DNA of 24,152 bases from a virus. Positions 2,659 to 24,152 of this stretch are shown here, piece by piece. Position numbers and translations under genes: made by a program. Numbering within the stretch: the stretch's first letter is position 1; each line of letters opens with the position of its first letter. Location of the stretch: positions 1-24,152 of IMG/VR virus record IMGVR_UViG_3300013233_000745, one strand, 5' to 3'. The notes beneath the pieces were generated by a model. That model made no database searches. It was given only the letters and a program-made list of their open reading frames with translations, and was not told the DNA's origin.

Positions 2659-2951
2659 TGCCAACCGAGATCGCGCGCGAACTGTCGGCACTGCGCGCTG
2701 AAATTGATGATGTGCGCGCGGATGTAGCGGCGGTGCGCGCGATTGTGGCGCCGCTAACGGGGCTATTGCCGGCAATCAGGCGCGCCGAAAAAGAGCAAAT
2801 ACGCGCCGATATTCTCGCGGAAACCAGTGGATCGCGCCAACCATTATGGCGCGATCCAGACGGGCGAACGTGGGTTTTGGCGATCGTAACGCGGGCCGGC
2901 CTGGCCGCAGTAGCCTGCTGCCTAGCACTAGCCGGCGCCCTGGCCCCCTAG
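2658..2951 (+). CDS. Holin-like protein (coiled coil plus C-terminal membrane segment), 97 aa
   Basis: The start ATG at 2658 overlaps the previous stop as TAATG. Residues 1-55 form a charged heptad-like helix (ELSALRAEIDDVRADVAAV). A DGRTW turn follows, and residues about 72-95 are a hydrophobic segment (WVLAIVTRAGLAAVACCLAL) that ends at the C-terminus. An N-terminal coiled coil with one C-terminal membrane span matches XhlA-type haemolysin/holin proteins and several phage holins. Its place after the putative lysin supports a membrane-permeabilising role at lysis. The stop TAG shares the palindrome CTAG with the stop of the last gene of the convergent Gly-rich array. Confidence 0.6.
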   Translation: MPTEIARELSALRAEIDDVRADVAAVRAIVAPLTGLLPAIRRAEKEQIRADILAETSGSRQPLWRDPDGRTWVLAIVTRAGLAAVACCLALAGALAP

Positions 2952-3355
2952 CCTGCGCCGCCGCCGCGGCCATCGCCGCCGCCGTATCCGCGGCCCCCAG
3001 CGTATCCGCCGCCGTAGCCGCGGCCGAGCTCGTCGCCTACGCCCCAGCCGCCGCCGCGGCCGCGGCCGCGGCCGTAGCCATCGCCGCGGCCCCCAGCGTA
3101 TCCGCCGCCGTATCCGCGGCCCCCAGCGTATCCGCCGCCGTAGCTACCGCGGCCGTCACCGACGCCGTCGTCGCCGTAGCCGCGGGCGTATCCGTATCCG
3201 CCGCCGTCGCCGTCGCCGCTGCCGTATCCGTCGCCCCAGCCGTATCCGTCGCCGTAGCCGCCACCGGCGCCCGCGCCGAAGCCGTCGCCGTAGCCGCCGC
3301 TGCTGCCGCCGCCACCCGCAGCGCTGCCGCGGCCATCGTGGGGGCGGCTACTCAT
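2948..3355 (-). CDS. Gly-rich array protein 14 (last of array), 135 aa
   Basis: Starts MSSRPHDGRG at 3355, with an ATG inside the end of the preceding gene (ATGAGTAG, 8-base overlap). The body is built from Gly with Tyr, Asp and Arg. It contains a visible internal repeat GGGYAGGRGYGG that recurs three to four times, and a GVGDELGRGYGG module shared in part with other members. It ends GGDGRGGGAG. Function unknown. There is no Shine-Dalgarno site ahead of the start, which points to reinitiation by ribosomes finishing the upstream gene. Its stop meets the holin-like gene from the other strand. Confidence 0.65.
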   Translation of the reverse strand: MSSRPHDGRGSAAGGGGSSGGYGDGFGAGAGGGYGDGYGWGDGYGSGDGDGGGYGYARGYGDDGVGDGRGSYGGGYAGGRGYGGGYAGGRGDGYGRGRGRGGGWGVGDELGRGYGGGYAGGRGYGGGDGRGGGAG

Positions 3356-3665
3356 TGCCGCGGCCGTATCCGCGGCCGTATCCAGCGCCACGGCTCGAGC
3401 CGCCGCCGTATCCATCGCCGTATCCGCCCCAGGCGTCGCCCGCGCCCGCGCCCGCGATTGCGCCGGAGCCCCAGGCGGCGCCCCAACCCGTGCCGCCGCC
3501 GCCACTGCTGCCGCAGCCCGTGCCGTATCCGCCGCCGCTGCCGCTGCCGTCGCCGCGGCCGTAGTCGTCGCCGAAGCCCCAGGCGCCCCCGTCGCCGTCG
3601 CCGCGGCCGCGGGCGTATCCGTAGCCCGCAGCGCGGCCGCGGCCATCGTGGGTGCGGCTACTCAT
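3348..3665 (-). CDS. Gly-rich array protein 13, 105 aa
   Basis: Starts MSSRTHDGRG at 3665 in an ATGA overlap with the stop of the preceding gene. Compared with its neighbours it has more Ser, Ala and Trp (GTGWGAAWGSG, DAWGG) and a Cys in GTGCGSSGG. It ends GYGRGYGRGNE; the codons for Asn-Glu and the stop also contain the next gene's ATG. The function is unknown. Low-complexity sequence without predicted hydrophobic core suggests a disordered or structural filamentous protein. Confidence 0.65.
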   Translation of the reverse strand: MSSRTHDGRGRAAGYGYARGRGDGDGGAWGFGDDYGRGDGSGSGGGYGTGCGSSGGGGTGWGAAWGSGAIAGAGAGDAWGGYGDGYGGGSSRGAGYGRGYGRGNE

Positions 3666-4054
3666 CGCGCCCCCCAGGCGTAGCCATCGCGGTAGCCAGC
3701 GGCGTATCCGGCGCCGTCGCCGTCGCCGTCGTCGTCACCCCCACCCCCACCCCCGCCGAAGCCAAAGCCCGAGCCGAAGCCGCTACCGCCGTCGCCGGGA
3801 CCCTCGCCCCCGCCGTCGCCGTATCCGTCGCCGCCACCGGCGCCGGCGCCAGTGCTATCGCCGCCGCCGAAGCCGTGGCCGTTGCCGTGGCCGCCGCCGC
3901 CGTCAGCGCCGACGCCGGCGCCGTAGCCGTTTCCGCGCACATCGCCGCCGCCGCGGCCGTATCCGTATCCGTCGCCGTGGCCGTGCCCGAGCTCGTCGCC
4001 CGCGCCGCAGCCGTAGCCGCCGTCACCGCGGCCGTCGTGGGGGCGGCTATCCAT
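3662..4054 (-). CDS. Gly-rich array protein 12, 130 aa
   Basis: Starts MDSRPHDGRG at 4054 within an ATGGATAG overlap. It carries the GAGDELGHGHGDGYGYG module also seen in arrays 9 and 2, a GGGDVRG piece shared with array 11, and near its C-terminus GGGGGGGDDDGDGDGAG. The DDDGDGDG run resembles Asp-rich calcium-binding loops (DxDxDG), though no such activity is shown. The end, GYRDGYAWGAR, departs from the usual Gly pattern. Function unknown. Confidence 0.65.
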   Translation of the reverse strand: MDSRPHDGRGDGGYGCGAGDELGHGHGDGYGYGRGGGDVRGNGYGAGVGADGGGGHGNGHGFGGGDSTGAGAGGGDGYGDGGGEGPGDGGSGFGSGFGFGGGGGGGDDDGDGDGAGYAAGYRDGYAWGAR

Positions 4055-4355
4055 CGCCGCCGCCGTATCCGTCGCCGCAGCCCCAGCCGTAGCCGTAGCC
4101 GCGCACATCGCCGCCGCCACAGCCGTATCCGTAGCTGCCGCCGCCGTAGCCGTCGCCGTATCCGTCGCCGCGGCCGTATCCGTCACCGCCGCCGTCGCCG
4201 TCGCCGCGGCCGAAGCCGCCGCCCCAGCCGTATCCGTCGCCCCAGCCGTCGCCCGCGCCAGCGCCGCCGCCGAGGCCACTGCCATCGCCGTAGCCCGCAC
4301 CGCGGCGATCATCGCCGCAGCCGGCGACGGCGCCGAAGCCATCGTGGCTATTCAT
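4047..4355 (-). CDS. Gly-rich array protein 11, 102 aa
   Basis: Starts MNSHDGFG at 4355, a shortened form of the array signature. The start is placed immediately after the acidic tail codons of the preceding gene (ATGAATAG overlap). The body has GWGDGYGWGGGFGRGDGDGG and a Cys-containing stretch GYGCGGGDVRGYGYGWGCG, ending GDGYGGGDG. Three or four Cys residues spaced in Gly-rich sequence could bind metal or crosslink, but this is not testable here. Function unknown. Confidence 0.65.
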   Translation of the reverse strand: MNSHDGFGAVAGCGDDRRGAGYGDGSGLGGGAGAGDGWGDGYGWGGGFGRGDGDGGGDGYGRGDGYGDGYGGGSYGYGCGGGDVRGYGYGWGCGDGYGGGDG

Positions 4356-4707
4356 CGTCCTCGTCCTCGTCCTCATCGTCCTCATCCTCATCGTCCTCGT
4401 CCTCCCAGCAGCCGAGGCCGCCGGTGCCGTCGCCGGTGCCGTGGCCGTTGCCGAGGCCGCCGCCCCAGCCGCCGCCGCATCCGCCGCCCGCGCCGTATCC
4501 GTCGCCGTGGCCGTGCCCGAGCTCGTCGCCCGCGCCGCGGGCGTTGCCGCCGCCCGCGCCGTATCCGTCGCCGGCCGAGCCGTATCCGCAGCCGGCGACG
4601 GCGCCGCCGCCGTAGCCCGAGCCGCCGCCGAGGCCCGCGCCCGCGCCGAGGCCGGCGTAGCCGCGGCCAGCGCCGAGGCCGCTGCCATCGTGGCGGCGGC
4701 TATCCAT
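4348..4707 (-). CDS. Gly-rich array protein 10 with long acidic tail, 119 aa
   Basis: Starts MDSRRHDGSG at 4707 in an ATGGATAG overlap. Residues up to about 100 are Gly-rich, with LGAGRGYAGLGAGAGLGGG and the shared GAGDELGHGHGDGYG module. A Cys-Trp pair follows, and then eighteen consecutive Asp/Glu residues end the protein (4348-4401). Such acidic tails occur in DNA-mimic and histone-chaperone-like proteins and in proteins that bind basic partners. Here that is only a suggestion. Confidence 0.65.
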   Translation of the reverse strand: MDSRRHDGSGLGAGRGYAGLGAGAGLGGGSGYGGGAVAGCGYGSAGDGYGAGGGNARGAGDELGHGHGDGYGAGGGCGGGWGGGLGNGHGTGDGTGGLGCWEDEDDEDEDDEDEDEDDE

Positions 4708-4882
4708 TGCCGCGGCCGTCGCCGTCGCCGCATCCGCGGGCGTTGCCTCCGCCGTCACCGCGGCCGTCGCCAGCGCCAGCGCCGCGCGTGCCGCCGCCGC
4801 GGCCGTATCCGCCGCCGTATCCATCGGCGGCGCTGGCGCCGCCGTAGCCACCGCCGCTGCCGCGGCCATCGTGGCTATCCAT
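4700..4882 (-). CDS. Gly-rich array protein 9, short, 60 aa
   Basis: Starts MDSHDGRGSG at 4882 and is the shortest member of the array. Its start lies within the codons of the acidic tail end of the preceding gene (ATGGATAG overlap). It contains GGASAADGYGGGYGRGGG and two GDGRGDGG/GDGDGRG pieces rich in Arg and Asp. With one Cys and no hydrophobic core it is unlikely to fold independently. Function unknown. Confidence 0.6.
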   Translation of the reverse strand: MDSHDGRGSGGGYGGASAADGYGGGYGRGGGTRGAGAGDGRGDGGGNARGCGDGDGRGNG

Positions 4883-5177
4883 CCTCGTCCTCCTCCTCGT
4901 CCTCATCGTAGCCGCCGTCGCCGAAGCCGCGGCCGTATCCGCCGCCACAGCCGAAGCCGTCGCCGCGGGCGTCGCCCGCGCCAGCGCCGCTGCCGTCACC
5001 GTCACCGCCGTAGCCGTAGCCGCGGCCGTCGCCAGCGCCAGCGCCGCAATCGTATCCGCCGCCGCGGCCGTATCCGTCGCCGCGGCCGAAGCCGCCGCCG
5101 TCGCCGCGGCCGAAGCCGCCGCCGGCGGCTACGCCGCTGCCGTCGCCGCCGCCGTCGCCGTCGCCGCGGCTATCCAT
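4875..5177 (-). CDS. Gly-rich array protein 8 with acidic C-terminus, 100 aa
   Basis: Starts MDSRGDGDGG at 5177, the one full member whose N-terminus lacks the HDG triplet. It has a clear internal duplication GGGFGRGDGGGFGRGDGYG and a Cys in GGGYDCGAG. It ends GYDEDEEEDEDG, a shorter acidic tail than that of the protein starting at 4707. The stop codon is embedded in the next start (ATGGATAG). Function unknown. Confidence 0.62.
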   Translation of the reverse strand: MDSRGDGDGGGDGSGVAAGGGFGRGDGGGFGRGDGYGRGGGYDCGAGAGDGRGYGYGGDGDGSGAGAGDARGDGFGCGGGYGRGFGDGGYDEDEEEDEDG

Positions 5178-5511
5178 CGTAGCCACCGCCGCTGCCGCCG
5201 CCCGCTCCGGGGCCCGCGCCGCGGCCGCGGCCGCGACCGTCGTCGCCGCCGTAGCCCCAGCTGTCGCCGCCACCGTATCCATCGCCGTCGCCGCGGCCGG
5301 CGCCGTCGCCGCCGCCCCAGCCGGCGCCGTAGCCGCCGCCGTAGCCGTCGCCGATGCCGCGGCCGCGGCCGCGGCATCGGCCGCCGCCGTCGCCGCGGTC
5401 GCCGCTGCCGGCGCCCCCGCCGTCGCCGTAGCCGGCGCCGACGCCGCGGCTGGCGCCGCCGCCGGCGCCGGCGCCGTCGTGGCCACGGCCATCGTGTGTG
5501 GGGCTACTCAT
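5170..5511 (-). CDS. Gly-rich array protein 7, first of the third run, 113 aa
   Basis: Starts MSSPTHDGRGHDG at 5511, seven bases after the stop of the DUF6948-like gene, so it is not stop-start overlapped like the others. The HDG motif is doubled. The body has GGGRCRGRGRGIGDGYGGG and GDSWGYGGDDGRGRGRG, more Arg-rich than the other members, and ends GGSGGGYDG. Function unknown. It begins a run of eight coupled Gly-rich genes ending at 2948. Confidence 0.65.
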   Translation of the reverse strand: MSSPTHDGRGHDGAGAGGGASRGVGAGYGDGGGAGSGDRGDGGGRCRGRGRGIGDGYGGGYGAGWGGGDGAGRGDGDGYGGGDSWGYGGDDGRGRGRGAGPGAGGGSGGGYDG

Positions 5512-5518
5512 TGCCGCA

Positions 5519-5809
5519 TCACTCGCGCCCCGTCCACGGGTCGATCGCCGCGAATGCCGCGACGGCGGCGGCGGAGGCCTCAATGACCTCCGACACGCCG
5601 TACACGGTGACGGCGACCGGCACCGCGATTTTCCCACCGAGTGGACCAATGGCCGCTAGACCGGAACAGCTCCCGGCCCCCGACCATGAATACACCCGAC
5701 GGGCGTCCGTCATGCTGACGGACGCGAGATCGCCACAGATGGTCGGCGAACCGACCATAATACCGTACCACACACCGCTCTGCGAGGAGCGGCAGACCAC
5801 TGCCTTCAT
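5519..5809 (-). CDS. DUF6948-like protein, 96 aa
   Basis: The preferred start is the ATG at 5809 (MKAVVCRSSQSGVW), preceded by GGAGAG with six bases spacing; in-frame ATGs at 5842 and 5830 lie in GC-rich hairpins. The protein has an N-terminal beta-strand region, then ARRVYSWSGAGSCSGLAAIG. From memory the WSGA-x-S-x-x-x-LA motif is the hallmark of DUF6948, a short family of unknown function found in phages and bacteria. The rest alternates strands (KIAVPVAVTVYGVSEVIEA). It has normal amino-acid composition, unlike the Gly-rich genes on both sides. It is the second of two ordinary genes after the promoter-like repeat at 6.2 kb. Confidence 0.7.
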   Translation of the reverse strand: MKAVVCRSSQSGVWYGIMVGSPTICGDLASVSMTDARRVYSWSGAGSCSGLAAIGPLGGKIAVPVAVTVYGVSEVIEASAAAVAAFAAIDPWTGRE

Positions 5810-5814
5810 TTTCG

Positions 5815-5915
5815 TCTCTCCACGCCCCATCCCCAGGGGCATCCCCCATCAGCAGGGGGCGGGCGCCCCCATTATGGGGGCGTGCCGGGCGCTTTTGGCG
5901 CGCCCGTTGCCGTCG
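5815..5915 (-). promoter_or_regulatory. Cluster of GC-rich hairpins between two genes
   Basis: The 106-base gap between the 69-aa gene and the DUF6948-like gene is full of inverted repeats. 5864-5882 reads CGCCCCCATTATGGGGGCG, a perfect palindrome around a central T. 5887-5892 pairs with 5900-5905 (GGGCGC/GCGCCC). Further CCCC/GGGG pairings lie at 5824-5860. On the minus-strand mRNA these would fold just upstream of the ribosome binding site. They may stabilise or attenuate the transcript; no T-run marks them as ordinary terminators. Confidence 0.55.
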
Positions 5916-6125
5916 TCAGCCCCAGAGGGCTTCGGAAAGTTTGTCGGTGTCGATGTCGCCAAAGGCGACGTGCCACGCCTCGGCGAGGCTCATCCATCGG
6001 TGCAATTGGGGGTTGGCGCGGCCGAAGAGGCGAATCGCCTCTTGGGGGGAGATGGTCCCCCCTTCGTCGGCGGCGCGGGCGATCTCGGCGGCGCGGGCGA
6101 TGGTCTCTGTGGAAAAGTACATCAT
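5916..6125 (-). CDS. Small unknown helical protein, 69 aa
   Basis: Two adjacent ATGs (6125 and 6122) overlap the TGA of the upstream Gly-rich frame; GGGAG lies two and five bases ahead of them. The product begins MMYFSTETIARAAEIARAA and continues with ISPQEAIRLFGRANPQLHRW and LAEAWHVAFGDIDTDKLSEALWG. It is mostly helical, with ordinary composition and a Trp-rich C-terminus. The pattern could be a small helix-turn-helix-like protein (ISPQEAIRLFG), but I do not recognise a family. It is the first gene after the 6.2-kb promoter-like repeat. Confidence 0.65.
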   Translation of the reverse strand: MMYFSTETIARAAEIARAADEGGTISPQEAIRLFGRANPQLHRWMSLAEAWHVAFGDIDTDKLSEALWG

Positions 6126-6508
6126 GACTCCCATTCAAGGGGGCGGCTCATCCGCCCCACACAGACATTGTAGCGCGGGGGCCGAAAAAGGCAAGCCCCG
6201 GGGGGCGAAAATCCATCTTTTTTCTGCTCCCGTCGATTACCGGCGTTGGCCGGGCGATAGCCGCGGCCACGACCGAGCTCAACGCCCGCGCCGCCGCCGT
6301 AGCCACCGCCGCCGCCGCTGCCGCCGAAGCCCGAGCCCGAGCCGCCGCCAGCGCCATCGCCGTCGCCGCGGCCGTAGCTCGAGCCGCCGCCGAGGCCACT
6401 GCCATCGCCAGCGCCCACGCCGCCGCTCGAGCCGTAGCCGTAGCCCGCGCCGCTGCCGTAGCCCCAGCCGGCGGCGTAGCCGCGGCCGTCGTGGCAGCGC
6501 CTATCCAT
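6122..6508 (-). CDS. Gly-rich array protein 6, 128 aa
   Basis: Starts MDRRCHDGRGYAAGWGYG at 6508 in an ATGGATAG-type overlap. The Gly-rich part runs to about residue 80 and ends GAGVELGRGRGYRPANAG. The frame then enters the duplicated 160-base element, giving a basic segment NRREQKKDG and an unrelated tail up to a TGA at 6122. The second copy of the element reads a different frame after FSPP because of single-base indels. The last 25-30 residues may therefore not be selected, and the gene may overlap the promoter of the next unit. Confidence 0.58.
   Translation of the reverse strand: MDRRCHDGRGYAAGWGYGSGAGYGYGSSGGVGAGDGSGLGGGSSYGRGDGDGAGGGSGSGFGGSGGGGGYGGGAGVELGRGRGYRPANAGNRREQKKDGFSPPGACLFRPPRYNVCVGRMSRPLEWES
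6140..6158 (-). promoter_or_regulatory. 5' leader hairpin, copy 1
   Basis: Seven-base perfect arms (GGGGCGG and CCGCCCC) flank a five-base loop. It begins almost exactly at the predicted transcript start and sits about 15 bases ahead of the first start codons. Hairpins at the extreme 5' end can protect phage mRNAs from decay; it could equally be an operator. Confidence 0.6.
6167..6194 (-). promoter_or_regulatory. Predicted sigma-70-type promoter, copy 1
   Basis: On the minus strand, -35 TTGCCT (6194-6189) and -10 TACAAT (6172-6167) are separated by 16 bases. Transcription would start near 6160, two or so bases before the hairpin of 6140-6158, and read the 69-aa gene at 6125. Both hexamers and the spacing are conserved in the second copy at 7.4 kb. 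No start site has been measured. Confidence 0.5.
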
Positions 6509-6839
6509 CGCCACAGCCGCGTGCGTCGCCGACGCCCACATCACAGCCGTAGCCGTCGCCGCGGCCGTAGATCGAGCCGCCGCCGCCGCCGCAGCGGTAG
6601 CTGCCGCTGCCGCTGCCGCTGCCGTCGGCCCAGCCGCCGCCGCCGCTACAGCCGCCGCCGTCGCCGACACCGTAGCTGAGGCCGCCGCCGTCGTCGGCGC
6701 CGAAGCCGAAGCCGCCGCCCCAGGCGTCGCCCGCGCCCCAGCCGCCGCCGTCGCCAGCGCCCCCGCCGCCGTAGCCGCGGCCGTAGCCGCCGCCACCCGC
6801 AGCGCGGCCGCGGCCATCGTGGGGGCGGCCGCGGCTCAC
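6501..6839 (-). CDS. Gly-rich array protein 5, GTG start, 112 aa
   Basis: Begins at GTG 6839 as MSRGRPHDGRG, overlapping the TGA of the upstream gene as GTGA. The HDGRG signature is displaced by one or two residues compared with the others. The body contains GYGRGYGGGGAGDGGGWGAG and a Cys/Trp-containing middle (GGCSGGGGWADGSGSGSGS), and ends VGDARGCGDG, close to the end of array protein 3. The non-ATG start in the same overlap position supports reinitiation. Function unknown. Confidence 0.62.
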   Translation of the reverse strand: MSRGRPHDGRGRAAGGGGYGRGYGGGGAGDGGGWGAGDAWGGGFGFGADDGGGLSYGVGDGGGCSGGGGWADGSGSGSGSYRCGGGGGSIYGRGDGYGCDVGVGDARGCGDG

Positions 6840-7159
6840 CAGGCGGTGAGCCCGTCGCATCCGACGGGACGCCCGTCGGTGTCCCTCCGGAGCGGGCCGG
6901 GCGACATTACGTCGGCCCGCGCCGCCGCCGCGGCGACAATACCAGACACCACATACGTGGTGCCCGGCACCGGTGCGGGCAACCCCGTCGGGGCTCCCCG
7001 CTCTACCAGGGTCACCCGCACATGCGGATGGCCCGTCACGAACCCGGCATCCAGCCGGGCCTCCGCGACCCGCGCGGGGGTCGCGGAGGGTTCCAGGACG
7101 ATGGGCGCCCCATCGTCCCGGAATATCACCACTTGGTGTGGCGTCAGGTTGATCAGCAC
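6836..7159 (-). CDS. Small phage protein with INLTPH N-terminus, 107 aa
   Basis: Starts at GTG 7159 (MLINLTPHQVVIFRDDG), overlapping the upstream stop as GTGCTGA. The sequence continues APIVLEPSATPARVAEAR, then GLPAPVPGTTYVVSGIV, then ARADVMSPGPLRRDTDGR and ends VGCDGLTAW. I recognise this order (NLTPH..., a P-S/A-x-x-ARV block, GLPAP...YVVS, R-x-DV-x-x-PG) from small conserved proteins of unknown function in phages of high-GC bacteria. The longer open frame upstream is a shadow of the repeat element and should not be included. It forms a two-gene unit with the preceding 60-aa gene. Confidence 0.72.
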   Translation of the reverse strand: MLINLTPHQVVIFRDDGAPIVLEPSATPARVAEARLDAGFVTGHPHVRVTLVERGAPTGLPAPVPGTTYVVSGIVAAAAARADVMSPGPLRRDTDGRPVGCDGLTAW

Positions 7160-7335
7160 GTCGCCGTCGCCGCGGCCGAAGCCGCCTCCGCCTCCGCCTC
7201 GGTCGCCCGCAGCGGCACTTCCGCCACAGCCTGTCCTTCGAGGGCGGCGGCTTCGGCTTCGGCGCGGGTAAGGTGGGCGCTTACGGGCCCACCAGCTTCG
7301 TGGTGTCGGTCCACCACGACATATATTGTCATCAT
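7153..7335 (-). CDS. Small unknown protein, 60 aa
   Basis: Starts MMTIYVVVDRHHEAGG at 7335 (or 7332), with AAAGG five bases upstream. The N-terminal hydrophobic strand MTIYVVVD is followed by LTRAEAEAAALEGQAVAEV, an Ala/Glu-rich helix, and a low-complexity Ala/Glu/Thr tail ending with Cys. The composition is ordinary apart from the tail. The stop overlaps the start of the INLTPH gene by seven bases. No family recognised. It is the first gene behind the 7.4-kb promoter-like element. Confidence 0.62.
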   Translation of the reverse strand: MMTIYVVVDRHHEAGGPVSAHLTRAEAEAAALEGQAVAEVPLRATEAEAEAASAAATATC

Positions 7336-7343
7336 CGCTACCT

Positions 7344-7509
7344 TTAGGGGGGCGGCTCATCCGCCCCACACAGACATTGTAGCGCGGGGGCGAAAAAAGG
7401 CAAGCCCCGGGGGGGCGAAAATCCATCTTTTTTCTGCGACCGTCGATTACCGGCGTTGGCCGGGCGATAGCCGCGGCCACGACCGAGCTCAACGCCCGCG
7501 CCGCCGCCG
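7344..7509 (-). repeat. Duplicated 160-bp promoter-like element, copy 2
   Basis: Second copy of the element at 6138-6299. The stretch from the leader hairpin through AAGCCCC and the poly-A run to CGATAGCCGCGGCCACGA is almost base-for-base the same. The copies lie about 1.2 kb apart and both separate a run of Gly-rich genes from a pair of ordinary genes. Confidence 0.85.
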
Positions 7510-7547
7510 AAGCCGCTGCCACGGCCATCGTGGTGGGGGCTATCCAT
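7344..7547 (-). CDS. Gly-rich array protein 4, short with basic tail, 67 aa
   Basis: Starts MDSPHHDGRGSGFGGGAG at 7547 with an ATGGATAG overlap. Only about 25 Gly-rich residues follow before VELGRGRGYRPANAGNRR and QKKDGFSPP, which come from the duplicated element. The final 20 residues (Phe/Pro/Ala-rich) are in a different frame from the other copy. It may be a full member cut down by insertion of the promoter element. Function unknown. Confidence 0.55.
   Translation of the reverse strand: MDSPHHDGRGSGFGGGAGVELGRGRGYRPANAGNRRSQKKDGFSPPRGLPFFAPALQCLCGADEPPP
7376..7403 (-). promoter_or_regulatory. Predicted sigma-70-type promoter, copy 2
   Basis: Minus-strand -35 TTGCCT (7403-7398) and -10 TACAAT (7381-7376) with 16-base spacing, as in copy 1. 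Although the neighbouring homopolymers changed length, the spacing stayed at 16, which argues for selection on the promoter. Leader hairpin arms are 7349-7355 and 7361-7367. The first gene read would be the 60-aa protein at 7335. Confidence 0.5.
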
Positions 7548-7875
7548 CGCCACCGCCGCGGGCGTCGCCGCCGCCCACGCCCCAGCCGCCGCCGCATCCG
7601 AAGCCCGAGCCGTAGCCCGAGCCGCCGCCCCAGCTCGAGCCGCCGCCCCAGCCGTATCCGTCGCCCCAGCCGTCGCCAGCGCCAGCGCCGCCGCCGCCCG
7701 CGCCGCCGCCGTCGCGGTAGCCCCAGCCGGCACCGGCGCCCCAGCCGGAGCCGGTGCCGGTGCCGTCGCCGTAGCCGCGGCCGCAATCGTATCCAGCGCC
7801 GATGCCCACACCACCGCCGTCGCCGCAGCCCCAGCCGGCGGCGTAGCCGCTGCCGTCGTGGGGGTGCCTACTCAT
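7540..7875 (-). CDS. Gly-rich array protein 3, 111 aa
   Basis: Starts MSRHPHDGSGYAAGWGCG at 7875. The body includes DGTGTGSGWGAGAGWGYRDGG, GDGWGDGYGWGGG and a long stretch with Trp and Ser (GSSWGGGSGYGSGFGCGGG), ending GGGDARGGGDG. Trp rather than Tyr is the main aromatic residue, unlike proteins later in the array. Function unknown. It overlaps its neighbours at both ends by stop-start fusions. Confidence 0.65.
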   Translation of the reverse strand: MSRHPHDGSGYAAGWGCGDGGGVGIGAGYDCGRGYGDGTGTGSGWGAGAGWGYRDGGGAGGGGAGAGDGWGDGYGWGGGSSWGGGSGYGSGFGCGGGWGVGGGDARGGGDG

Positions 7876-8167
7876 CGTAGCCGCCGTATCCGTCACCGCG
7901 GCCGCCACCGGCGCCCGCGCCGAAGCCGTCGCCGCGGGCGTATCCGCGGCCGAAGCCCGAGCCGCCGCCGAAGCCGTTGCCGTTGCCGTCGCCGTAGCCC
8001 CAGCCGGTGCCGTGGCCGTGCCCGAGCTCGTCGCCCGCGCCGTATCCGTATCCGTAGCTGTCACCGGCGCCGCCGTCGCCGAAGCCGCCGCCGCCGCCGA
8101 AGCCCGCGCCGCTGCCGTAGCCCCAGCCGGCGGCGTAGCCGCGGCCATCGTGGGGGCGCCTACTCAT
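7868..8167 (-). CDS. Gly-rich array protein 2, 99 aa
   Basis: Starts MSRRPHDGRGYAAGWGYG at 8167, nearly the same first eighteen residues as array proteins 3 and 6, showing recent duplication of the 5' ends. It carries the GAGDELGHGHGTGWGYG module and GNGNGFGGGSGFGRGYARG, and ends GYGGYDE. Function unknown. The stop overlaps the next start as ATGAGTAG. Confidence 0.65.
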   Translation of the reverse strand: MSRRPHDGRGYAAGWGYGSGAGFGGGGGFGDGGAGDSYGYGYGAGDELGHGHGTGWGYGDGNGNGFGGGSGFGRGYARGDGFGAGAGGGRGDGYGGYDE

Positions 8168-8699
8168 TGCCGCCGCCGCGTGCGTCGCCGTCACCGCTGC
8201 CGTCGCCAGCGCCGCCGCCGCGGCCGTATCCGCGGCCGTATCCGCGGCCGCCGCCCGAGCCGCCGCCGAAGCCGTGGCCGTTGCCGTGGCCGGCGCCCCA
8301 GCCGGCGCCGCCACCGGCGCCGCCACCGGCGCCAAAGCCGTATCCATAGCTGTCACCGGCGCCGCCGCCCGCGCCGTCGCCCGCGCCGTCGCCCGAGCCG
8401 GAGCCCCAACCGTCGCCGTCGCCGTCGCCCGCGCCGTCGACGACCCCCAGGTGACGCCTACCATCATCGCGCGTCGCCAGCGGCAGCGCGGGCGGCGGCG
8501 CTGGCGACGGCGCTGGCGACGGCGGCGAATAGCAGCTAGCCGCCGCCAGCGCGGCGCGCACCCACGCGGCGCGGGTCGTGCCGGCGGCGGCGGCGGCGGC
8601 GCCGATCGCCGCCAGTAGCTGCGGCGGCATCGCCACGCGCGATAGGCGCGCGCCATATGCCGGGCGTCCACGACGGCGATGTGGTCGTACGCTCATCAT
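8160..8699 (-). CDS. Ribbon-helix-helix domain fused to a Gly-rich tail (array protein 1), 179 aa
   Basis: Two ATGs at 8699 and 8696 overlap the exonuclease stop as ATGA. Residues about 18-54 read RLSRVAMPPQLLAAIG then GTTRAAWVRAALAAA. This is a strand of alternating residues, a helix, a G-T-T turn and a second helix, as in Arc/CopG-type ribbon-helix-helix DNA-binding proteins. A Pro/Ser/Ala linker (about 58-72) leads into DGAGDGDGDGWGSG and a Gly-rich tail like that of the array, ending GDARGGGNE. The N-terminal MMSVRPHRRRG resembles a degenerate form of the array signature. The fusion suggests the Gly-rich tails can be attached to DNA-bound proteins; the cell target is unknown. Confidence 0.65.
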   Translation of the reverse strand: MMSVRPHRRRGRPAYGARLSRVAMPPQLLAAIGAAAAAAGTTRAAWVRAALAAASCYSPPSPAPSPAPPPALPLATRDDGRRHLGVVDGAGDGDGDGWGSGSGDGAGDGAGGGAGDSYGYGFGAGGGAGGGAGWGAGHGNGHGFGGGSGGGRGYGRGYGRGGGAGDGSGDGDARGGGNE

Positions 8700-9439
8700 T
8701 TCCCCTCGCCGTGCCAATGTGCCGCCAGATGTAGGGCTTCGAGGTCCATAATCGCGCGCATCAGCCACACGTCCTCGCGGACATGCTCATCAATCGCGAC
8801 GAGGTCATCGGCGGCCCATGCGTCCGCGATATCACCGCCGGTACCGGCATTTACGGCGAGCCCGTAGCTCTGTGCCACGCGCTGCAATCCCCATCCGCTG
8901 CGCCGGTCCATCGCGCGCGCAATGCATCGCTCGGACGGATCGTCGCACCGCACCGACGACCAATATGCCCTAGCGCCGCGAATTTCCGGCCGCACGAGCA
9001 TACCTAGCGGCTGTTGCAGCCGCTGTAGCCGCACGAGCCTACCACGCAGGTACGGAAAATCGAAAGACCCCCCGTTCCACGCCGACAATGCGACCACATT
9101 GTGCCGCTGTAGCCACTCATTCGCGCCGTCGATGACGCTCATTTCGTCACCGACCGCCGACCACACGTCGGCCGGCCCGGTACAGGGCGCATCGGCGACC
9201 GCCAGGCCGATCGCGACAATATGTGACGTATCGGGAGCGATCGTGCGATGTAGCAGCCACCGCCGACGCTGCTCCTCCCTCTTCGCGTCGCCGATCGTGC
9301 GCCACCATTTTGCGATCGCATCGGCGGAACGGTAGTTCCCCGGCGGCTTTACGCCGGCTGTAGCCTCGGCGGGCAAGTCGATCGGGCGGCCGCGCGCAAT
9401 CACGTCCGCCACACACTCCACGTCGATCAGCGCCCTCAT
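8696..9439 (-). CDS. DEDD-type 3'-5' exonuclease (DnaQ/PolB exonuclease-like), 247 aa
   Basis: Exo I motif D-x-E is in ALIDVEC (Asp6, Glu8). VKPPGNY and the following helix are typical of phage exonucleases of this group. TSHIVAIGLAVAD gives the next strand. Exo II is in SAWNGGSFDFPYLRGR (Asn and Asp), and Exo III is in HVREDVWLMRAI. In DEDDy enzymes the last motif is YxxxD; here His occupies the Tyr position with the same spacing. It would degrade DNA 3' to 5' with two metal ions, and beside an ERF protein it may prepare single strands for recombination. The ATG at 9439 overlaps the previous gene as ATGA. Confidence 0.8.
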   Translation of the reverse strand: MRALIDVECVADVIARGRPIDLPAEATAGVKPPGNYRSADAIAKWWRTIGDAKREEQRRRWLLHRTIAPDTSHIVAIGLAVADAPCTGPADVWSAVGDEMSVIDGANEWLQRHNVVALSAWNGGSFDFPYLRGRLVRLQRLQQPLGMLVRPEIRGARAYWSSVRCDDPSERCIARAMDRRSGWGLQRVAQSYGLAVNAGTGGDIADAWAADDLVAIDEHVREDVWLMRAIMDLEALHLAAHWHGEGK

Positions 9440-9627
9440 GGCGCTGCTCGCCGATCATGCGCCGCCGCCGCCGCATATGCCGCGGCGAGCCCCATTGCCA
9501 GCAGCGCGTTGGCGGCGCTCGCTGGATTCGGGCGCACCCCCGTGCGCGTGTACACCCATTCGCGATATTCGGCGATCCGCGCCTTGTTTGCCACGGTAAT
9601 CGCCAGTCGTTGTCGCGTGTGCGCCAT
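9436..9627 (-). CDS. Small putative DNA-binding protein, 63 aa
   Basis: Start ATG 9627 (MAHTRQRLAITVANKARI), preceded by AGGAGG with four bases spacing. The product has a short basic strand (RQRLAITV), a helix (NKARIAEYREWVYTRTG) and a second helix (PASAANALLAMGLAAAYAAA). That order fits a ribbon-helix-helix-like dimer that could regulate this divergent region, but the match is weak. It is the first gene of the leftward operon and overlaps the exonuclease start. Confidence 0.6.
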   Translation of the reverse strand: MAHTRQRLAITVANKARIAEYREWVYTRTGVRPNPASAANALLAMGLAAAYAAAAAHDRRAAP

Positions 9628-9772
9628 CGTACCTCCTGGCCCCCAGGTAGCCCGGGGGGCCGCCCGCGCGCCACCCATCCAGCGTACCCCCGGTATCCCC
9701 AGGGCGCCCCGACGGTGGCGGGTGGCGCGCGGGGGCCACCCGGGCTACGGGGGCCCAGGAGGTACGATGGCG
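9622..9772. repeat. Large inverted repeat holding divergent start sites
   Basis: Left arm 9622-9676 and right arm 9720-9772 are near-perfect reverse complements of about 53-55 bases, with only a few single-base gaps. The centre, 9677-9719, is unique. Each arm contains AGGAGGTACGATGGCG reading outward, so both divergent genes have the same leader, ribosome binding site, start codon and second codon (Met-Ala). No convincing -35/-10 pair is seen. The region is likely the shared control site of both operons. Confidence 0.85.
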
Positions 9773-10549
9773 GATGGGAGTGGGCCCATGAGTGGGCCCC
9801 TGATGGCGGTGTTGCGTGACGGATGCGCGATGTCCGCAGAATGTGGTGCATTGTTCGCCGCATTGGCGGCGGCGCAGGGGGACTTTCCGCCGCTTCAACG
9901 CGACCGTAACGTGCGCGTGCGGATGAAAAAGGGCGGGGAATACAGGTACAGGTACACCACGCTCGGCGCGCTGCAGCGCGCCACAAGGCCGATTCTGGCC
10001 GCTCACGAGCTGGCGCTCACGCAGCTCACCCATCGCGTACACGGCGCGGTCGGCGTAGTGACGATTCTCGGCCACGCCAGCGGACAATGGCTCGCCGCGC
10101 TGACAATGGTCGACGTGATGGATACGGACGCGCAAGTGCAGGGCGGCGGATACACCTATGCGCGGCGATACGGGTGGGCCGCGATACTCGGCGTCGCAAG
10201 CGAACAAGACACCGACGGTCCACCCCAAAGCGACGAAATATCACGCCATGTGGGCCCGTCGCCGCGGCCGGCGCCGACGCCTGCGCCCGCCCCGACGGGC
10301 GGGCACCACCCGTCGTGGAAGGCAGATCGCAAGCGCTTCTGCGCCGCGATAGCGCCGCTTGGCGGCTACGAAACGGTCGCGGCCTACTGTGAGCGGCGTG
10401 GTTGGGGCCGCCCGTCGGCGTGGGCGCAGGCGTGGCGCACCAAGTGGCTAGCCCGCCACGGCGATCTGCCGGCCGGCGTGTGGGCCGACATGCTGGAGAG
10501 CGTCGAAATGCACCCCGATAATGTCGGGGAAAACAAGGAGGAAGGATGA
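9767..10549 (+). CDS. ERF-family single-strand annealing recombinase, 260 aa
   Basis: Start ATG 9767 follows AGGAGG in the inverted repeat; the earlier in-frame ATG lies in the divergent gene and is rejected. The N-terminal half carries the ERF hallmarks: YRYRYTTLGALQRATRPIL, a strand GVVTILGHASGQWLAA, and QGGGYTYARRYGWAAILGV followed by acidic EQDTDG. A Pro/Ala-rich linker joins a C-terminal helical part (KRFCAAIAPLGGYETVAAY). ERF proteins anneal complementary single strands in phage recombination and genome circularisation. The divergent exonuclease is a natural partner. Confidence 0.85.
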   Translation: MADGSGPMSGPLMAVLRDGCAMSAECGALFAALAAAQGDFPPLQRDRNVRVRMKKGGEYRYRYTTLGALQRATRPILAAHELALTQLTHRVHGAVGVVTILGHASGQWLAALTMVDVMDTDAQVQGGGYTYARRYGWAAILGVASEQDTDGPPQSDEISRHVGPSPRPAPTPAPAPTGGHHPSWKADRKRFCAAIAPLGGYETVAAYCERRGWGRPSAWAQAWRTKWLARHGDLPAGVWADMLESVEMHPDNVGENKEEG

Positions 10550-22775: not shown

Positions 22776-24152
22776 CTAGCGGCCGTTGTCAAACGACCGT
22801 AAATGGATCGCGCGTTCGCGCGCAAAAATGGCGCTCTTCGACACGCTTATGCCGCGTGCCGTCGCCGCGCGTACCGTCGCCTCTTGCAGTCGTGCTTCAT
22901 CCTCCGCTACCGACTTCGCCAGCGCCGGATGCAGGCCATCCACTAGGAGCGCCGCCCGAAGCGCCGTCGCTTCCGTTTCGCGATCGGTGACACCCAGTGT
23001 CCACCGTCGACCCGCGTCCGCCAACGCATCCGACAGCCGATCCTGCGGCTGCCCCTGGGGTCCGGGCGGCCGCCCCGACAATCCCGCGGCAGCATGGCGG
23101 CCCGCGCGGGCCGCGACATCGGATGGGTACCCTTGCGCGAGCATCGCATCTGACGGTGAGTACCCAAGCGGCGCAGATGCCATCGTCTTTGCGCGGTTCA
23201 AACGCTCCGTTTCCGCCGCTTGCAGCGCATCGATGTGGCGAAAATCATGCCTGATCGGACGCCCGTATACAGCCGACAGGAATGCGTCCATCGACTTTGA
23301 CCGCTCGCGATAATAGCCCCAGAACCCGCGCATCTGCTGGCGCGACTCGCCGTACCCCGCAGACGGAATGCCGGACATGACCGGAGGGATATGCATCAGC
23401 GCTAGCGCGGCGGCTTGCGCGCGCGATACCGCCGCTTGAAACTCCATATCGCGGAACGACATGGCGGCTGGTTTGAGCTCGAAGGCCTCGTCGAGCAGGA
23501 ACAGGCCCATTCCTGCGGTCGCCACCTTGTCCCATTCCGCGTACAACTTCGCCTTGACGCGGTCCGACAATCGCACCTGGTCATTTTTGGCGGTGCCGAT
23601 GTACGACACATGGCCGCGTTTCGCCGCTTTCGCGGACAGGCGGTCTACCGACCATTCAGTGTTCAACATCGCCTCGAGCGCCTTGACCGCCGACGTGCCG
23701 CGATTGTTTGGCGAGCCCGACAACGTCAGCCCTGCATGCCACTCGATAGGGGTCAGCACCTCACGGCCGTCAGGCGCCTGGTAGCCGATGGCGACGCCGT
23801 CTCGGACGAGACCTATCGCAGGATGCAGGTAGGAGCGTGATTGTCGGAGAGCCCACACCTCCTCGGCTACAATCTCGCTGACCCACCAGCCGAGCCTATC
23901 GCGCGTGCGAAGGAGCCCCCCAAGTGGATGGCCCGCATCATCGACGAGAGGCAACCCGGCGAGGTACCGGGCGGCGGTTTCGACACCGACGCGAAGCCAC
24001 GGGAAGACAGCGGGTGCTGCCATTGCGCGCGCGATGGGGTACACCGGCACGTCTGGGGCCGTGCCATATGCGGCGTTCCAGCGTGCATTGGTACCGAGCA
24101 GGGCGACAGCGCCGCCTCGAGCGGGGGGGAGCGCGGGCGGTCGCGACAACCA
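22776..24152 (-). CDS. Phage portal protein, partial at the window edge, at least 457 aa
   Basis: The reading frame is open through the right edge (24150-24152 is TGG), so the true start may lie outside the window or close to it. It contains YPIARAMAAPAVFPWLRVGV, GSPNNRGTSAVKALEAML, DRLSAKAAKRGHVSYIGTAK, GMGLFLLDEAFELKPAAMS and QQMRGFWGYYRERSKSM. These are typical of HK97-family portal proteins, which form the twelve-fold ring for DNA entry. Terminase should precede it. The last 239 bases are the right arm of the terminal inverted repeat. Confidence 0.8.
   Translation of the reverse strand, partial: WLSRPPALPPARGGAVALLGTNARWNAAYGTAPDVPVYPIARAMAAPAVFPWLRVGVETAARYLAGLPLVDDAGHPLGGLLRTRDRLGWWVSEIVAEEVWALRQSRSYLHPAIGLVRDGVAIGYQAPDGREVLTPIEWHAGLTLSGSPNNRGTSAVKALEAMLNTEWSVDRLSAKAAKRGHVSYIGTAKNDQVRLSDRVKAKLYAEWDKVATAGMGLFLLDEAFELKPAAMSFRDMEFQAAVSRAQAAALALMHIPPVMSGIPSAGYGESRQQMRGFWGYYRERSKSMDAFLSAVYGRPIRHDFRHIDALQAAETERLNRAKTMASAPLGYSPSDAMLAQGYPSDVAARAGRHAAAGLSGRPPGPQGQPQDRLSDALADAGRRWTLGVTDRETEATALRAALLVDGLHPALAKSVAEDEARLQEATVRAATARGISVSKSAIFARERAIHLRSFDNGR
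23914..24152. repeat. Right arm of 239-bp terminal inverted repeat
   Basis: Exact reverse complement of 1-239, and entirely inside the portal coding sequence. The arms diverge at 23913, where the portal reading frame continues (LLRTRDRLGWWV) while the left arm runs into non-portal sequence. Confidence 0.95.

Follow-up and report, generated by a model that had tools for sequence, protein, structure and literature searches.

A duplicated element within a glycine-rich gene chain

Why does a segment of 162-166 bp occur twice within one chain of phage genes, and what could each copy do for the genes that follow it? The DNA analysed here (the window, 24,152 bases in full) is an IMG/VR phage record from a small uncultured phage, in which a portal, a head-gene protein (phrog_617) and an ERF recombination gene can be identified; a terminase was not found among the proteins tested. 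On the minus strand, a single gene chain runs from 9627 to 2948, starting with a small RHH-like protein (9436-9627; a call made by eye, with no match in a family search) and an exonuclease-like protein (weak matches), and continuing with Gly-rich ORFs. About a dozen of these overlapping ORFs, housing both copies of the repeat, occupy 2948-8167 on the minus strand. Most of their junctions overlap by 8 or 4 nt, with the 8-base stop/start overlaps taking the form ATGRRTAG. The full-length ORFs have a Gly content of 35-52% and begin with an M-[SD]-[SR]-R-x-HDGRG-like motif, found nine times versus zero expected. The array is without a relative in the collections searched, and its start motif gave single matches only in viral and genome contigs, which were taken as chance. 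One member terminates at 4348-4420 (minus strand) in a Glu/Asp run (EDEDDEDEDDEDEDEDDE), unlike most of its neighbours.

The chain is broken by two blocks of ordinary, non-Gly genes. The two copies of the repeat lie immediately before these blocks, each within the 3' end of the Gly-rich ORF before it, and mark the two Gly-rich/non-Gly junctions inside the array. In the case of copy 1, the Gly-rich ORF spans 6122-6508 and its TGA overlaps the next ATG; 3' of the copy come a 69-aa gene (5916-6125), with a weak HTH_28 hint only, and a DUF6948 gene (5519-5809; PF22253, E 7e-12). In the case of copy 2, a short Gly-rich ORF lies at 7344-7547, followed by the first block, which is made up of a small gene at 7153-7335 (MMTIYVVVDRHH...) and a gene at 6836-7159 belonging to a functionally uncharacterised phage family (INLTPH..., phrog_21731, E 3e-18) with relatives in 8 phage records. 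All of these genes are on the minus strand. GC-rich hairpins are also seen at 5840-5916, between the 69-aa and DUF6948 genes, with a fold z of -3.9 versus shuffles.

An earlier note on this DNA had described near-identical direct copies at 6138-6299 and 7344-7509 (minus strand), and alignment confirms both sets of coordinates, with about four differences between the copies. These are a GA/TC difference, an additional C on the upstream side of the -35 box, another after the hairpin and a two-base spacer change that can be read as GG -> TC or as +T/-G. No third copy is present in the record, where no other stretch comes closer to the 55-bp core than 24 mismatches. Read 5' to 3', each copy consists of 70 identical Gly-rich coding bases, an AT-rich tract, TTGCCT, 16 bases, TACAAT, eight bases, the hairpin GGGGCGG-ATGAG-CCGCCCC, an SD-like stretch and the ATGATG of a non-Gly gene. 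Identity between the copies ends one or two bases 3' of the hairpin, and the SD-like/ATGATG segment differs in sequence with both motifs present in each.

The boxes, their spacing and the perfect hairpin are all found on the minus strand of both copies, as the earlier note had it. A sequence scan places the -35-like TTGCCT at 6189-6194 in copy 1 and 7398-7403 in copy 2, and the -10-like TACAAT lies at 6167-6172 and 7376-7381, giving predicted +1 positions of 6160 and 7369. Measured against the sigma-70 consensus, TTGCCT-16-TACAAT matches at 9 of 12 positions in both copies, TTGCCT accounting for four of its six. The AT-rich tracts 5' of the -35 boxes (6206-6229 and 7416-7437) are 30% GC, which puts them among the lowest-GC 20-mers of 2949-8700, and their position would suit an UP element. 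The hairpin (6140-6158 in copy 1; the same 19-bp palindrome at 7349-7367 in copy 2) has 7 GC pairs and a centroid energy of about -15 kcal/mol. It had been said to start a few bases from the transcript start, and it indeed begins at the predicted +3 and ends at +21, so that two unpaired 5' bases precede it if +1 is as predicted. Rfam and tRNA scans returned no match. The suggestion that a GCCCC/GGGGC stem and T-run just upstream might terminate the previous transcript was rejected: the stem is four (copy 1) or five (copy 2) pairs long, folding is no better than in shuffles (z +0.5 and +0.8), terminator-like matches are at chance level, and the supposed T-run is the -35/spacer.

A candidate internal promoter with a leader hairpin

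The repeat itself is real and probably has a function. Within 5.5-8.7 kb there are two promoter-like box pairs versus 0.19 expected, and the box pair combined with a 7-bp perfect hairpin occurs twice, whereas 500 local shuffles contained none and shuffles of the whole window averaged 0.05; because one copy duplicates the other, these promoter and hairpin counts represent one independent observation. Promoter boxes without the hairpin are near chance across the whole window. We lean, with somewhat more than even confidence, towards the repeat being a duplicated internal promoter cassette whose mRNA would begin with a hairpin. This reading is favoured because of the boxes, the AT-rich tract, the hairpin at +3, the SD and ATGATG, the placement before non-Gly genes and the recurrence of the layout in unrelated phages, which is taken up below. 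RNA polymerase would initiate on the minus strand near 6160 and near 7369, and the two pairs of ordinary small genes could then be expressed without relying on the preceding long, GC-rich message that encodes Gly. Each such RNA would carry about two unpaired bases and then the hairpin, a geometry known from other cases to hinder 5'-end-dependent decay. Hairpins at the 5' end are known to hinder RppH, and the B. subtilis RppH requires at least two unpaired bases (PMC3997798). The hairpin may also separate the ribosome site from upstream sequence, and the second copy would be a recent duplication within the repetitive array.

The earlier note had argued that promoter and leader are the selected function, pointing to homopolymers that differ in length around an unchanged spacing. 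A promoter with a leader hairpin remains the best reading, but the argument from homopolymers and spacing is too weak to establish selection. Given 3-5 events in 162 bp, the 31-bp core would escape all of them with a probability of 0.35-0.53; this pair of copies therefore does not allow selection on the promoter to be inferred, and the spacer difference, perhaps two substitutions, further weakens the case for preserved spacing.

Among described systems, the extended start-associated sequences (ESAS) that recur in cluster K mycobacteriophages come closest, each pairing a sigma-A-like promoter with an inverted repeat (PMC3203893, PMC11373665); the window element would be somewhat ESAS-like in its working but is not an ESAS. 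Both are repeats in the non-structural part of the genome in which -35/-10 boxes and an inverted repeat stand ahead of single small genes, and where ESAS come as several promoter-bearing copies before separate genes, the window has two. However, in Adephagia a 15-17 bp inverted repeat runs from the -35 to past the -10 (TTGACATGCATACAG...CTGTATGCATGTCAA) and is followed by the SAS, whereas the dyad of the window lies wholly downstream of the -10, starting 8 bases after it, and overlaps neither box. The 13-bp SAS itself (GGGATAGGAGCCC) has no match in the window with fewer than three mismatches, and its count is at chance. The element can also be likened to the 5'-terminal stem-loop stabilisers of the ompA/papA type (PMC3997798), since it too presents a stable hairpin almost at the predicted 5' end, preceded by few unpaired bases; the likeness is one of geometry, whereas those stabilisers rest on mRNA half-life measurements. 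A third comparison is with the SPBRE of SPbeta (PMC10516654), where one regulatory sequence likewise recurs ahead of several genes of the phage. SPBRE is a 15-bp site for the MrpR repressor, whereas a repressor of the window element is hypothetical.

A similar layout in an unrelated phage group

Searches for relatives were made at the level of both the element and the proteins around it. An exact 21-mer of the element has no match in IMG/VR. Searches with the portal, the capsid and the 69-aa protein returned only distant capsid/portal relatives (L003, L010 and others), and a capsid relative was not found in genome contigs. In the genome parts covered, these capsid/portal relatives have neither the Gly-rich array nor the element; the further copies that the earlier note proposed to look for in related phages did not appear there, and thus no true homologue of the element was found. 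A looser pattern (TACAAT, 4-10 bases, GGGGCGG, 3-8 bases, CCGCCCC) matched 30 IMG/VR stretches; several of these (L054, L058, L059, L064, L072, L074, L078 and L082) are T-run terminators and were dropped.

The most interesting part of the finding is the recurrence of the layout in seven records, G006-G012, of a different phage group (stretches L083, L085, L087, L090, L091, L093 and L094). A DnaB-like helicase, a portal and a major head protein were identified in the one record of this group that was tested, and the window proteins have zero matches in G006-G012. In these records GC hairpins precede many small genes, in several copies per record, and are followed by an SD and an ATG. Many of the hairpins are preceded by TTGNNN-17-TANNNT (TACAAT in several), and start at about -4 to +4. 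With strict box criteria, 1-3 per record pass versus 0-0.125 expected. Compared directly, the cassettes of this group (L083, L085, L087, L090 and L091) and those of the window share the box pair, GC hairpin, SD and ATG; they differ in a spacer of 17 rather than 16, in variable stems, in some hairpins being promoterless and in having no homologous proteins. The resemblance between the two sets of elements need not reflect a common origin. As far as the open-access literature extends, the occurrence of this promoter/hairpin layout in an unrelated, undescribed phage group is new.

Stem sequences in G006-G012 vary between copies while pairing is maintained. Stem pairs were counted by script in 25 elements, 23 from this group and 2 from the window, as a MAFFT alignment (A6) was out of structural register. 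The fifth pair from the loop is C-G in 14 of the 25 and G-C in 11, and the sixth is G-C in 17 and C-G in 8; one element has GGCA/TGCC where its counterparts show GGGA/TCCC. The elements were selected for having a hairpin, so these counts illustrate covariation rather than test it. Some leader hairpins of this second group have no recognisable promoter, a counterpoint to the promoter reading, and the hairpin may therefore act without a nearby start.

Taken more widely, promoters with a hairpin in the first transcript bases could form a recurrent and undescribed expression module of GC-rich phages, a proposal we offer tentatively and regard as rather doubtful. Each copy would give a small gene within a polycistron its own short, protected mRNA, with the hairpin acting by structure and not by sequence, and the module would have arisen or spread independently in unrelated phages. 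If right, this would supply a testable rule for small-gene expression in the long polycistrons of very GC-rich phage genomes, provide a recognisable module by which promoters, hard to predict in uncultured phages, could be located there, and lend itself naturally to comparison with the cluster K ESAS.

Alternative explanations

An explanation we hold to be unlikely, while giving it more weight than the others below, is that the palindrome serves as an operator at the DNA level. A repressor of the phage, bound to GGGGCGGATGAGCCGCCCC over the start site, would control both promoters jointly, and could perhaps be the 69-aa product encoded 3' of copy 1. The 19-bp palindrome is identical in both copies across +3 to +21, the repeated promoter elements of SPbeta turned out to be repressor sites (PMC10516654), and the 69-aa protein carries its weak HTH hint. 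That hint is below cut-off, however, and the fold model of the protein (pLDDT 68) is without a significant PDB match. In the unrelated group the stems vary within one genome (GGGGCGGGA, GGCGGGGA, GGCGGCGTG); since they differ yet stay paired, one sequence-specific repressor fits poorly there. The window stems, being identical in both copies, cannot decide between a hairpin acting as RNA and an operator.

Less probable again is that the repeat is a passive by-product of recombination, in which copying of a Gly-rich gene's end carried the junction along, and the resemblance to a promoter and hairpin has little function. Copy 2 does come after a short Gly-rich ORF, the copies are too alike for selection to be inferred, and hairpins arise easily in GC-rich sequence. 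Yet the combination of promoter and hairpin is missing from shuffles, identity halts at the hairpin with an SD and ATGATG next in both copies, and the layout recurs in unrelated phages. Very improbable is conservation of the protein, with two Gly-rich proteins sharing a C-terminal tail (GVELGRGRGYRPANAGNRR) and an incidental promoter look. In its favour, the ORFs remain open across the repeat and share their 70 identical coding bases, but the tail is absent from other Gly-rich ORFs and, as the earlier note had recognised from the length differences, the Gly-rich ORF shifts frame between copies after the indels, leaving different ends. The duplicated promoter with a leader hairpin thus remains the reading we prefer.

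Two further regions of the window deserve mention in their own right. An exact 239-bp inverted repeat is found at both ends (1-239 and 23914-24152), and the portal gene starts within it. In L003, a relative, genes matching the left end of the window sit directly before the portal, and the window ends look rearranged or mis-assembled. In a divergent start region at 9600-9790, inverted copies of GGGSCCAGGAGGTACGATGGC precede the ERF gene and the gene for the small RHH-like protein; a palindrome, CGGGTGGC-8-GCCACCCG, lies at 9719-9742.
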